From Thermococcus alcaliphilus (GTDB taxonomy: Archaea; Methanobacteriota_B; Thermococci; Thermococcales; Thermococcaceae): a stretch of DNA of 64,000 bases. Below the pieces are notes generated by a model, which saw only the letters and a list, made by a program, of their open reading frames with translations, searched no databases and was not told the origin of the DNA. The DNA lies in NCBI RefSeq assembly GCF_024054535.1, contig NZ_JAMXLV010000021.1:1-64000 (forward strand). Direction: 5' to 3'. Made by a program: the position numbers and the translations under genes. Below are positions 7,306 through 10,899 of this stretch, piece by piece (positions within the stretch are counted from its first letter, which is position 1; every line of letters starts with the position of its first letter).

Positions 7306-8628
7306 ATGGACATCCAGCTAGTTGTCTTCGATCTCGATGGAACCCTTGTGGGTGCGCCAATGGACTTTGCAGAAGTAAAGGAGAGATTAAGAGAGAGGCT
7401 TGAGAAGGAGGGAATATCAAAGGAGCTCATCGGTGATTTGACGCCCATGTATGAAACTCTGCTCAAGATATCCCAAAATACAGGTATGGATTTTGAATAT
7501 CTGCATTCATTCCTCGTTGAACTGGAAGTAGAAAGGGCTAAGGACAGCTATTTGTTCGAAGGTTCCAGAGAGTTGCTAGAGCTTTTAAAAGAAAATGGGA
7601 TAAAACTCGCCCTGATGACTAGGAGCTCTAGAAAGGCCACAGAATATGTGCTAAAAAAACATGGTATTGAGGAATTTTTTGACCTTGTAGTTACCAGGGA
7701 TGATGTACCTCCAGAAGATGTTAAGCCAAATCCCGGCCATTTAAAGACAATACTAGAGCATTTTAATGTTCCACCAACAAAAGTAGTTGTAGTGGGAGAT
7801 CATGGATATGACCTGCTCCCGGCAAAAGAACTAAGGTGTCTGAGTGTACTTATAACCTCCAACGAAAGCGGAAGAATGAGCTTTAAAATTGAAGAAGACG
7901 CAAACTTTGAAGTAATGAACGTCAAAGAGGCGATTGAACTTTTCAAGCGATTACTCAAGACATACGTTGTTGTACCGGCGTACAATGAAGAGAAAACAAT
8001 AGGTAACGTCCTGAGGGACTTGCTCCAGTATTTCAAAGGAGAAGAGATTGTGGTCGTAAATGACGGGAGCAGAGACAAAACTAGAGAAGTGGCTCAAGAA
8101 AAAGGCGTGGTAGTGTTAACACACCTCGTAAACAGAGGGCTTGGAGGAGCATTGGGTACAGGGATAAGATATGCCCTCCTTAAAGGAGCTGAATTAATAT
8201 TGACCTTTGATGCAGATGGCCAGCATTTAGTTGATGATGCCCTAAGAGTAATGAAGCCAGTTGCAGAAGGGAAGGCAGATTTTGCCGTGGGCTCAAGATT
8301 GAAAGGGGACGTAAGTGAAATGCCTTTTGTAAAACGCTTTGGAAATTTTGTTCTTGACTTTATAACGGCAGTGTTTGCTAAAAAATACGTTTCCGATTCC
8401 CAAAGCGGATTGCGGTGCTTGAATAGAGAATGTGCATCCAAAATAAAAATCACATGCGATAGATACGCTGTTTCAAGTGAAATAATAATCGAAGCCTCAA
8501 AGAACGGATGCAGAATAGTTGAAGTACCCATAAAAGCGGTTTATACCGAATATTCCAAAAAGAAAGGGACCAATATTTTAGAGGGCGTAAAAATAGCTTT
8601 TAACTTGCTGTTGGATAGGATGAGGTGA
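7306..8628 (+). CDS. HAD phosphatase fused to GT2 dolichyl-phosphate-sugar synthase-like domain
   Basis: A 440-residue two-domain protein. Residues 1-220 form a HAD hydrolase of the phosphoglycolate-phosphatase type: DLDGT near 9, MTRSS near 105, KPNPGH near 145 and GDHGYD near 165. Residues 222-440 form a family 2 glycosyltransferase: PAYNEEKTIGNVL, VNDGSRDKT and DADGQH. The GT2 part resembles DPM/DPG synthases that load mannose or glucose onto dolichyl phosphate. The fusion suggests the HAD removes a phosphate in the same sugar pathway, but the substrate is unknown. The gene overlaps the next frame and lies opposite the GPT gene. Confidence 0.88.
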   Translation: MDIQLVVFDLDGTLVGAPMDFAEVKERLRERLEKEGISKELIGDLTPMYETLLKISQNTGMDFEYLHSFLVELEVERAKDSYLFEGSRELLELLKENGIKLALMTRSSRKATEYVLKKHGIEEFFDLVVTRDDVPPEDVKPNPGHLKTILEHFNVPPTKVVVVGDHGYDLLPAKELRCLSVLITSNESGRMSFKIEEDANFEVMNVKEAIELFKRLLKTYVVVPAYNEEKTIGNVLRDLLQYFKGEEIVVVNDGSRDKTREVAQEKGVVVLTHLVNRGLGGALGTGIRYALLKGAELILTFDADGQHLVDDALRVMKPVAEGKADFAVGSRLKGDVSEMPFVKRFGNFVLDFITAVFAKKYVSDSQSGLRCLNRECASKIKITCDRYAVSSEIIIEASKNGCRIVEVPIKAVYTEYSKKKGTNILEGVKIAFNLLLDRMR

Positions 8629-8633
8629 TAAAA

Positions 8634-8996
8634 ATGTATGCCGTACAATACATCGCCGTTATTATTATCTTGGCACTTATGGTATACGTACTTGGAAAAT
8701 ACGGGAGAAAAGAGCTTGACTGGCAGGATCTGGTGTTCTGGGAAGCTTTGCTCCTCATAATGCTGATAATTTCCCTGAAACCGGTGGAGATTTCCTTAAC
8801 AATAAAAAACATACTCGGGCTTGGAAGGGGTCTAGATGCATTGTTTGTGGTCTCTATAGGCCTCAGCTACCTGCTGTTGTTTAGGCTTTACATCGCAATA
8901 GACAAAGCTGAAAGGGAAATAACCGAACTAACACGTCGGATCGCAATAGAATTTCAGGAAATCAAGGAAATGCTAGAAAAACTAGAAAGGGATTAG
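8634..8996 (+). CDS. DUF2304 small membrane protein
   Basis: A 120-residue protein with three hydrophobic segments (about 3-20, 33-50, 62-88) followed by a charged helical tail (about 90-120, heptad-like). DUF2304 proteins regularly sit downstream of GT2 glycosyltransferases and probably help membrane assembly of the glycosyltransferase, although the function is unproven. ATG 8634 is preferred over the overlapping GTG at 8625 because GAGGTGA ends 6-7 bases before it. The 3' end overlaps the converging dCMP deaminase by 4 bases. Confidence 0.75.
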   Translation: MYAVQYIAVIIILALMVYVLGKYGRKELDWQDLVFWEALLLIMLIISLKPVEISLTIKNILGLGRGLDALFVVSIGLSYLLLFRLYIAIDKAEREITELTRRIAIEFQEIKEMLEKLERD

Positions 8997-9523
8997 TCAT
9001 TTCCAAAAAGCTCTTCCAGGAATACCTTAACCCTCTCCTTGGGGACTTTAAACTGTCTTATTTTCACAATCCCTTTCTCTTGAGCTTCTTTCAGCAAAAT
9101 CTCAGTTGCCTTGTTTGGATACATCTCCTCGTAAACTATTTCCCTAACTCCCGCATTTACCAGTAACTTAAAGCAGACATCGCATGGAAAGTGGGTAACA
9201 TAAAGTGTGGCCCCTTCAAGGCTTATCCCCTTTCTAGCCGCCATTGCTATGACGTTCTGTTCTGCATGAACCGCTCTATGACAGTGACCATCGACTATCA
9301 GGCAACCCACATCTATACAGTGATCCATGTTCCTCGGGGCCCCATTATAGCCTGTCGCCAAAATGTAGCCGTCTTTTACGGCAACTGCTCCAACCCTAAG
9401 TCTAGGACATGTAGCCCTTAGACTCACGAGCTTTGCAATGAGCATGAAGTATTCATCTTTCGTGGGACGTATTTTCTTTATATGCTCTGCTCGCTCTTTA
9501 TCTAGAACTATTTCTACCTCCAT
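8993..9523 (-). CDS. dCMP/cytidine deaminase family zinc enzyme
   Basis: A 176-residue zinc-dependent deaminase. The motifs HAEQN (zinc His and catalytic Glu) and PCDVC (two zinc Cys) are present, preceded by RVGAVAVKDGYILATGYNGAP. Length and layout fit dCMP deaminase, which makes dUMP for thymidylate synthesis, including extra Cys/His (DHCIDVGC, DGHCH) seen in that family. AGGTGG precedes the ATG. It is a single gene between converging and co-directional neighbours. Confidence 0.9.
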   Translation of the reverse strand: MEVEIVLDKERAEHIKKIRPTKDEYFMLIAKLVSLRATCPRLRVGAVAVKDGYILATGYNGAPRNMDHCIDVGCLIVDGHCHRAVHAEQNVIAMAARKGISLEGATLYVTHFPCDVCFKLLVNAGVREIVYEEMYPNKATEILLKEAQEKGIVKIRQFKVPKERVKVFLEELFGND

Positions 9524-9570: not shown

Positions 9571-10353
9571 TCAGTTGAAAATTCTCTCCCTGAGGGTCAT
9601 AGCTTCAACTTCTGCCATAATCTTCCATATCCTCTCTTCATAGCTTGGGTGTGTCTCAAAGAGCGATTTTTGGTGAGGTCTTTCTATCTTTGGCTCTATA
9701 GAGGGCAACGCAGATTCCTTAACCTCGATCCTTAAGTCCTCGTAGTACTTAAGTTCTTCGAGGGCTCTTTTTAGAGCCAATGGGACAGGTATTAAGCGCA
9801 ATGCTGTTTCATCAGCTTTAAATTCTCTCTGTTTTAAATAATCAGACCTACGAACCTCGTAGAGGAGGCAAAATATGAAGGAAGCCAATGAAACCAAAGT
9901 GTTTCTTGAGATTAGGAAATTCAAAAGGGCTATAGCGAGCATGAGGTATCTCCCATAAGAGATGAGCGGGAAGAGAACAGTATCTCCGTTTTTTATATGG
10001 CCTATCTCATGGGCCGCAACTGCAAGGATTTCTTCTTCATCGAGAACCTCAAATAGACCCATGGAAAGTACAATCGAATTTCTAAAAGAGTAAGCATTGG
10101 GTATATAGTCATCCAGCAGATAAATTTCTGGAGTTGCTATCCCAGCCTTATTTGCCATCCTCATTATTCCATCGTAGAGCCATGGGAGGTCTTCATAGGA
10201 AAGCTTCCTTTGTTTCTTCTTTAAGGAGCTCTTAATAGTCCACAGGTACAGTCCAGCAAGAATAAGAAATACCCCAACTACGAATAACAGGCCAAGTTTT
10301 CCCAAGTACAAAATTGTAATCAACACTTGGGCGAGGAATATAAGTTTAAGCAT
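9571..10353 (-). CDS. M48 family membrane zinc metalloprotease (HtpX-like)
   Basis: A 260-residue protein with an N-terminal pair of membrane segments (about 5-40), a cytoplasmic gluzincin domain with HEIGH (H115, E116, H119), a further hydrophobic pair near 130-165 and the third-ligand region REFKADETA near 190. HtpX-like proteases degrade misfolded membrane proteins. It starts 6 bases after the BlaI-type repressor gene ends, so the two are one operon. This resembles a BlaI/BlaR logic in which a membrane protease relieves repression, although here the protease is M48 and not M56. Confidence 0.86.
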   Translation of the reverse strand: MLKLIFLAQVLITILYLGKLGLLFVVGVFLILAGLYLWTIKSSLKKKQRKLSYEDLPWLYDGIMRMANKAGIATPEIYLLDDYIPNAYSFRNSIVLSMGLFEVLDEEEILAVAAHEIGHIKNGDTVLFPLISYGRYLMLAIALLNFLISRNTLVSLASFIFCLLYEVRRSDYLKQREFKADETALRLIPVPLALKRALEELKYYEDLRIEVKESALPSIEPKIERPHQKSLFETHPSYEERIWKIMAEVEAMTLRERIFN

Positions 10354-10359
10354 CTATTA

Positions 10360-10725
10360 TCACTTCTTTATCTTTGAGAGGTACGCAACGGTTGCCTCCT
10401 TAAAATTACTCATGAGGGCATTCAAAATGCTCTCTACAACTTTCTTCTCAAACTCCTCTTTGCTTGTAGCCACACTGTAAACGTATCTCATTCCTCCCCT
10501 TCCCGTATCCACACTTCTCTTTAATAGCCCTCTTTCACAGAGCCTGTTCATTAGTATACTAACTGTAGAACGTCTTAAGTTCTCATGTTTCTCTTTTAAA
10601 TATTCATAAACCTCTCCAGCCGTTGCAACCTTCACATTCCACATATACTCCATTATCTCGGCTTCCATTGGAGGTAGAACTGCTCTTAAACCGTCTTCAT
10701 TTATCTTGAATTCATGAGGCTGCAT
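10360..10725 (-). CDS. BlaI/MecI-type winged-helix repressor
   Basis: A 121-residue protein whose N-terminal 85 residues match the BlaI/MecI/CopY winged helix: EAEIMEYMWNVKVATAGEVYEYL, then RRSTVSILMNRLCERGLL, then a wing with GRGGMRYVYS. The C-terminal helix would dimerise. It is the first gene of an operon with the M48 protease. GGAGGAG precedes the ATG at 10725 and a TATA-like ATTTATGTA lies further upstream on the coding strand. By analogy the protease may cleave or release this repressor; that is inference. Confidence 0.87.
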   Translation of the reverse strand: MQPHEFKINEDGLRAVLPPMEAEIMEYMWNVKVATAGEVYEYLKEKHENLRRSTVSILMNRLCERGLLKRSVDTGRGGMRYVYSVATSKEEFEKKVVESILNALMSNFKEATVAYLSKIKK

Positions 10726-10821
10726 TGAACATCTCCTCCGGTTTATTCACTATCCAGTTTAATTAACCCGGCATCATACATAAATTTTTTGGAACATGAA
10801 CTCCCTGTAGAAGAGCCTATT

Positions 10822-10899
10822 TGGCGGGCCGGGGGGGATTTGAACCCCCGACCTGCGGATTAAGAGTCCGCCGCTCTAACCATGCTAAGCTACCGGCCC
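10822..10899 (-). tRNA. tRNA-Lys (CUU)
   Basis: On the minus strand the acceptor GGGCCGG pairs with CCGGCCC, followed by discriminator G and an encoded CCA. The anticodon arm GCGGA-CTCTTAA-TCCGC gives anticodon CTT. The T arm GGGGGTTCAAATCCCCC is complete. No intron is seen. A TATA box for it lies at 10929-10936. Confidence 0.97.

Follow-up and report, generated by a model that had tools for sequence, protein, structure and literature searches.

Staphylococci use a repressor-cutting switch against penicillin, and the pairing of BlaI-type repressors with M56 membrane proteases is itself established. In the system of Staphylococcus aureus, as described in PMC9834060, BlaR1 cuts the repressor BlaI between Asn101 and Phe102, and the Phe at the cut position is almost invariant among BlaI proteins. 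The archaeal locus presented here resembles the S. aureus BlaI/MecI and BlaR1/MecR1 (M56) systems in the family and fold of the repressor, in having a membrane zinc protease as partner, and in the presence of Asn-Phe at the aligned cleavage position. It differs from them in that the Thermococcaceae protease is assigned to M48 by a full-length profile with a THP...R motif, the penicillin-binding sensor domain is missing, the host is archaeal, no TACANNTGTA operator occurs in the window, and the third gene codes for a deaminase.

The window, a stretch of 64 kb of DNA, belongs to an archaeon, as the earlier note had stated: a contig scan for repressor relatives gave 22 named loci, all labelled Thermococcus, Thermococcaceae, Thermococcales or Thermococci. 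The repressor (121 amino acid residues, positions 10360-10725, minus strand) is followed by the protease (260 residues, 9571-10353, minus strand), with six bases between the repressor stop and the protease ATG; both reading frames were found where that note had placed them. After a further 47 bases comes the gene of a dCMP-deaminase-type enzyme (ComEB-like, 176 residues, 8993-9523, minus strand), the third gene of the cluster. Ahead of the repressor ATG a ribosome-binding site, GGAGGAGAT, can be read from the sequence at 10731-10739 on the minus strand, and a probable TATA box of the repressor-protease operon, TTTATGTA, is located at 10777-10784 on the same strand with an A-rich, BRE-like stretch before it. 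TTTATGTA is found in all 12 same-genus upstream regions; its role as a TATA box is presumed from archaeal promoter anatomy. Further upstream, a tRNA-Lys (CTT) in the same orientation (10822-10899, minus strand, ARAGORN) limits the promoter region and is outside the system.

The repressor scores 64.7 bits against Pfam Penicillinase_R (PF03965, cut-off 22.6) over residues 19-117, and by this profile it is a member of the BlaI/MecI/CopY family, in agreement with its first description as a BlaI-type repressor. Among the Penicillinase_R matches of the host genome the operon repressor (64.2 bits) stands far above the next two (23.7 and 22.2 bits). The AF2 model has a mean pLDDT of 85.9 and contains a single long C-terminal helix, residues 89-120. 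Its best Foldseek match in the PDB is MecI (1okr, E 1.6e-4, TM 0.54), with PadR and other winged helices close behind, and the monomer model thus predicts a MecI-like winged-helix fold with a C-terminal dimerisation region. PMC7253601 describes C-terminal Cys-X-Cys metal motifs in the CopY copper repressors. No such motif is found in the present repressor, whose sole cysteine, Cys63, is located in the DNA-binding domain.

The boundary between M48 and M56 was tested for the protease because the two families share a fold. The protein matches Pfam Peptidase_M48 with 79 bits (cut-off 20.3) over profile positions 6-183 of 186, and Pfam M56 with 20.9 bits, under the cut-off of 31. Together with the THP residues these matches led us to reject an M56 or BlaR1 type. 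Three further Thermococcaceae copies have a similarly complete M48 match; across these and the window protease it runs from positions 4-6 to 181-184 of 186. The best eight NCBIfam models are all HtpX; because their scores are far under the equivalog cut-offs (80.1 bits for the top model, cut-off 355), true HtpX was rejected and the label HtpX-like is used. The motifs are HEIGH (residues 115-119), REFKAD (176-181) and THPSYEER (234-241), and H115, E116, H119, E177, D181, T234, H235, P236 and R241 are the same in every one of the 84 full-length Thermococcaceae proteases aligned; the truncated copy at L117, in which the HEXXH part is missing, is left out of this alignment. Hydropathy indicates two hydrophobic blocks, 1-44 and 126-164, which leave no room for a penicillin-binding sensor domain within 260 residues. 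Many small M56 partner proteases also lack an extracellular sensor domain. The predicted model (pLDDT 88.3) matches ZMPSTE24 (E 4.4e-6), HtpX (E 4.4e-4) and, more weakly, BlaR1 (E 3.6e-3) in the PDB. With BlaR1, as PMC9834060 presents it, the operon protease shares HEXXH and a Glu ligand with Asp four residues on. The paper also notes that the equivalent of thermolysin His231 is absent in BlaR1 and present in ZMPSTE24; the His of the THP motif in the operon protease is probably this equivalent.

The operon protease is thus similar to the M48 quality-control and CAAX proteases HtpX and ZMPSTE24 in its whole-length M48 profile and closest solved structures. Unlike HtpX, it is tied to a repressor gene, it is shorter (260 residues, compared with the 294-residue frame of the genome's own HtpX-like paralog), and it is 28-36% identical to the HtpX-like paralogs compared. 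The host genome has two further M48 genes. When the window protease was compared with other genomes, the full-length operon copies scored 187-555 bits, the truncated copy 69 bits, and other M48 genes of these genomes at most 75.5 bits.

The bacterial comparison covers four of the seven plasmid records with a repressor match; records with an HtpX-like match number 81. The BlaI-M56 pairs on Paenibacillus and Priestia plasmids, as well as the sister archaeal pairs at loci L148-L155, resemble the present operon in that the repressor comes first and the protease second, the two genes adjoining or sharing a few bases. However, the partner in Paenibacillus lautus differs: it scores 59.3 bits as M56, over the cut-off, and its M48 match spans positions 26-154 of 186. 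On a plasmid of Meiothermus taiwanensis (NZ_CP021131) a protease annotated as M48 (30.7 bits as M48, 22 bits as M56) lies 4 bp behind BlaI, but its match is confined to M48 profile positions 27-101 and, by reading, it has no C-terminal THP motif. Since this plasmid pairs BlaI with an annotated M48 protease, we do not claim that the combination is unique to archaea or occurs nowhere else. No study of an archaeal BlaI-M48 pair was found among the literature matches listed, most subscription journals being outside the coverage. The locus is a very conserved gene cluster of the BlaI-protease kind in which M48 replaces M56 and a deaminase is added, and a switch is plausible in view of the invariant Asn-Phe and the intact catalytic residues.

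The arrangement of the genes suggests that the repressor may be cut by its neighbour, and an operon relieved by proteolysis of its repressor is the best explanation of the locus, though we hold it tentatively, at somewhat less than an even chance. A BlaI-family dimer would repress its own operon, which comprises the repressor and the M48 protease and, at least in loci with very short gaps, extends to the deaminase. Some signal in or at the membrane would activate the membrane-embedded M48 protease, and its zinc site, presumably cytoplasmic, would cut the C-terminal helix of the repressor, most likely between Asn107 and Phe108. The cut dimer would fail, and the operon would be expressed. The sequences show what the genes are, that their order is conserved and their spacing tight, that the catalytic residues are intact and that Asn-Phe is aligned with the known site; autorepression, cleavage, signal and targets are the parts of this switch that we infer. 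The earlier note had described the switch as stress-sensing, a term that finds no support in a 260-residue protease with no space for a sensor domain and a third gene of dCMP-deaminase type.

The repressor is present in 87 of 94 Thermococcaceae genomes and in 73 of the 74 of good quality, making the cluster near-universal in the well-sequenced members of the family. The locus was read in all 87 carriers. In 85 of them the gene that comes next, in the same orientation, is the protease (84 full length, one truncated), and the other two loci (L025 and L123) stop at a contig end, so the pairing is far beyond chance. In 82 of the 85 loci the protease ATG lies 3-15 bp past the repressor stop, and the three spacing exceptions are broken-gene loci with an in-frame TGA (L011), a frameshift (L105) and a deletion (L117), respectively. 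The TGA of L011 (genome G077) falls at repressor codon 78 in a single-contig genome with an intact protease; it is possibly a natural loss of the repressor or a sequencing error. At L117 (genome G005) the 121 residues of the repressor are kept, but the frame has lost its stop and continues beyond them, while the protease is without its HEXXH part and a C-terminal reading frame of 110 residues remains, which is a natural protease-less case. Two further loci were set apart: L125, a paralog locus that has no repressor, and L033, a duplicate of L124. Core genes often stay together in the compact genomes of the Thermococcaceae, and the cluster might accordingly be an old stable neighbourhood without shared function. 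This is very improbable in view of the variable upstream side, where the gene before the repressor falls into 36 clusters among 83 loci (the biggest has nine members, and some clusters probably contain spurious reading frames) while the repressor-protease junction is kept.

The third gene scores 93.2 bits against Pfam dCMP_cyt_deam_1, and its best solved relative in the PDB is the dCMP deaminase 2hvv (E 3.5e-34); against the ComEB equivalog it reaches 147 bits, under the cut-off of 219. A HAE...PCxxC motif is found in 83 of 83 copies, and by zinc motif and profile the protein is of the dCMP deaminase family. The copies are 79-100% identical to that of the window. By direct search the gene immediately follows the protease, in the same orientation, in 83 of 85 loci (a count of the nearest downstream reading frame gives 79 of 85), and in both readable loci of genus g2 (L097 and L103) it lies on the opposite strand. 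The gap between protease and deaminase is at most 15 bp in 56 of the 83 loci; it is 32-59 bp, and 123 bp in one case, in 27, namely every locus of the window's genus and the majority of those in g3, g5 and g6. The earlier note had described an operon of repressor and protease, and its adjacency of repressor and protease holds in the 85 loci given above, but the conserved gene at 8993-9523 was overlooked. Because the deaminase is conserved, the unit is a three-gene cluster, and this changes what the repressor might control; the deaminase gene offers the first idea of a repressor target.

The constant position, the short gaps of the 56 loci, the high identity and the intact motif could be taken to mean that the cluster chiefly serves the deaminase, with the repressor and protease tuning dCMP deaminase (dUMP/dTTP supply) and the protease being minor or auxiliary. 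However, the longer gaps, including those in the window's genus, have room for a separate promoter, the gene is on the opposite strand in both readable g2 genomes, and no deaminase is found nearby at 16 sister-lineage repressor loci. We regard this reading as rather improbable.

These 16 further repressor loci were read in the same class, leaving out a relative in genome G114. At the eight closer relatives (L140-L147, 101-145 bits) no recognisable protease is present in the 1-3.6 kb on each side. At all eight more distant relatives (L148-L155, 62-79 bits) the repressor overlaps a downstream protease reading frame by 4 or 8 bases. Four of these partner proteases were scanned; they score 42.7-87.1 bits as M56, their M48 match ends at positions 86-113, and three of the four score higher as M56. 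The fourth, L154, scores higher as M48 (65.5 bits, compared with 42.7 for M56), and by its profiles this type of protease is intermediate between the two families; at L154 and L155 BlaI overlaps a protease of 311 residues. A tree of 36 rows unites the Thermococcaceae repressors in a single clade (99/98) and places it with the protease-less relatives, and the eight protease-paired archaeal repressors stand apart (100/97); the tree covers archaeal repressors only and carries a long-branch warning. Fourteen of the 17 sister-class genomes gave no close relative of the operon protease (best match 85 bits). Because the closest repressor relatives have no neighbouring protease, and because of the grouping in the tree, the M48 pairing appears to have been assembled separately and not to be an M56 pair with a drifted protease. 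The profile, motif and tree tests uphold the earlier claim that M48 stands in place of M56 beside a BlaI-type repressor.

The same eight protease-less loci and the tree also speak for a reading in which the protease is the regulated output. The repressor would then itself sense a ligand or the membrane or thermal state and control an HtpX-like quality-control protease together with the deaminase; HtpX-type proteases are quality-control enzymes in bacteria. Conservation is higher in the repressor (mean column identity 83%) than in the protease (58%, 20 rows each), as expected if the repressor has tasks beyond its own operon, and genome G005 kept the repressor and lost the HEXXH part of the protease. 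Against this explanation, gene order and coupling copy those of the sister-lineage BlaI-protease pairs, and the Asn-Phe of the cut site is invariant in the M48-partnered lineage, although this counts as one evolutionary change only. It is a serious possibility, a little less credible to us than cleavage of the repressor.

The candidate cleavage site was located by phmmer, which aligns Asn107-Phe108 of the repressor with residues 101-102 of MecI. All 85 Thermococcaceae repressors in the alignment carry Asn-Phe at this position. The alignment leaves out L011 and L105, which are also Asn-Phe when read on past the stop or in the other frame. In the 16 more distant relatives, used as a control, the P1' Phe is present in 15, that is in eight of eight with an adjoining protease and in seven of eight without, and P1 Asn is found in none of the 16. 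Because the Phe is present with or without a protease neighbour, it is no evidence for a local protease; its role may lie in the dimer core, and the Asn may have been inherited within the lineage. Asn-Phe was consequently rejected as proof of cleavage, the Phe being family-wide and the Asn one change on the tree. The dipeptide permits the cleavage mechanism and does not prove it.

Repressors of the BlaI/MecI/CopY family bind operators of the TACA/TGTA type. The TACANNTGTA site is absent from the 64-kb window; since only 0.49 occurrences are expected by chance, this absence says little about other operators. No perfect 6+6 dyad is present in the window promoter region, 10726-10790. Perfect 6+6 dyads were also counted in 87 upstream regions, each made up of the 120 bp ahead of a repressor gene, with L033 standing for genome G061, and compared with shuffled sequences. 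They are found in one of 12 regions in the window's genus g1 (shuffle mean 1.8), one of three in g2 (0.5), one of nine in g3 (1.1) and none of one in g6 (0.3). Genus g4 has 16 of 55 (mean 8.6, maximum 14), several of them tRNA arms by reading, and g5 has seven of seven (mean 1.9, maximum 4), the seven sequences being close relatives. The g5 palindrome, TTGTCAnnnTGACAA, sits 92-94 bp before the repressor in all seven g5 loci. Across whole genomes the palindrome has 2-3 sites in each of five genomes from g5, compared with 0-1 for a reversed control, one site each in G093 and G077, and none in the window's genome. Its sites (L179-L190, mostly in g5 genomes) also precede other genes, one of them glutamine synthetase-like by reading, and in g5 the repressor has its promoter in common with a divergent gene. 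For these two reasons TTGTCAnnnTGACAA was not assigned as the repressor operator, and neither the TACANNTGTA search in the window nor the dyad search in the 87 upstream regions gave a recognisable one.

The order and tight coupling of the genes, which match the sister-lineage BlaI-protease pairs, were counted for the proteolytic switch, as were the constant adjacency beside a varying upstream neighbour, the invariant Asn-Phe, the intact catalytic residues and the structural resemblance of the protease model to ZMPSTE24, HtpX and, more weakly, BlaR1. Counted against it were the distribution of Phe and Asn among the more distant relatives, the closest relatives without a protease, the protease loss in G005, the lack of an operator and the lack of a sensor domain. 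Because of the difference in conservation between repressor and protease, the loss in G005 and the lack of a recognised operator, the switch is placed just slightly above the protease as regulated output. If the switch is real, archaeal signalling would proceed by membrane-protease cleavage of a repressor, with M48 doing the job of the bacterial M56. A more elaborate proposal, which we consider unlikely as a whole, is a second assembly of the repressor-cleavage switch: a BlaI-type repressor from a lineage without a neighbouring protease would have joined an HtpX-like M48 protease in the Thermococcaceae ancestor, would carry the Asn-Phe cut site, and would now set the expression of the dCMP-deaminase gene, linking membrane state to nucleotide supply in hyperthermophilic archaea. 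The family includes genetically tractable species, Thermococcus kodakarensis and Pyrococcus furiosus.

Two observations concern neighbouring genes. At L140, L143 and L144 the protease-less repressor lies, by reading, directly before a gene like the small subunit of replication factor C (clamp loader), and a different role for that repressor lineage is possible. In the window, a single reading frame at 7306-8628 (plus strand) appears by reading to join a HAD-type phosphatase and a GT2 glycosyltransferase in one fusion, and it is followed by a DUF2304 gene (8625-8996, Pfam).
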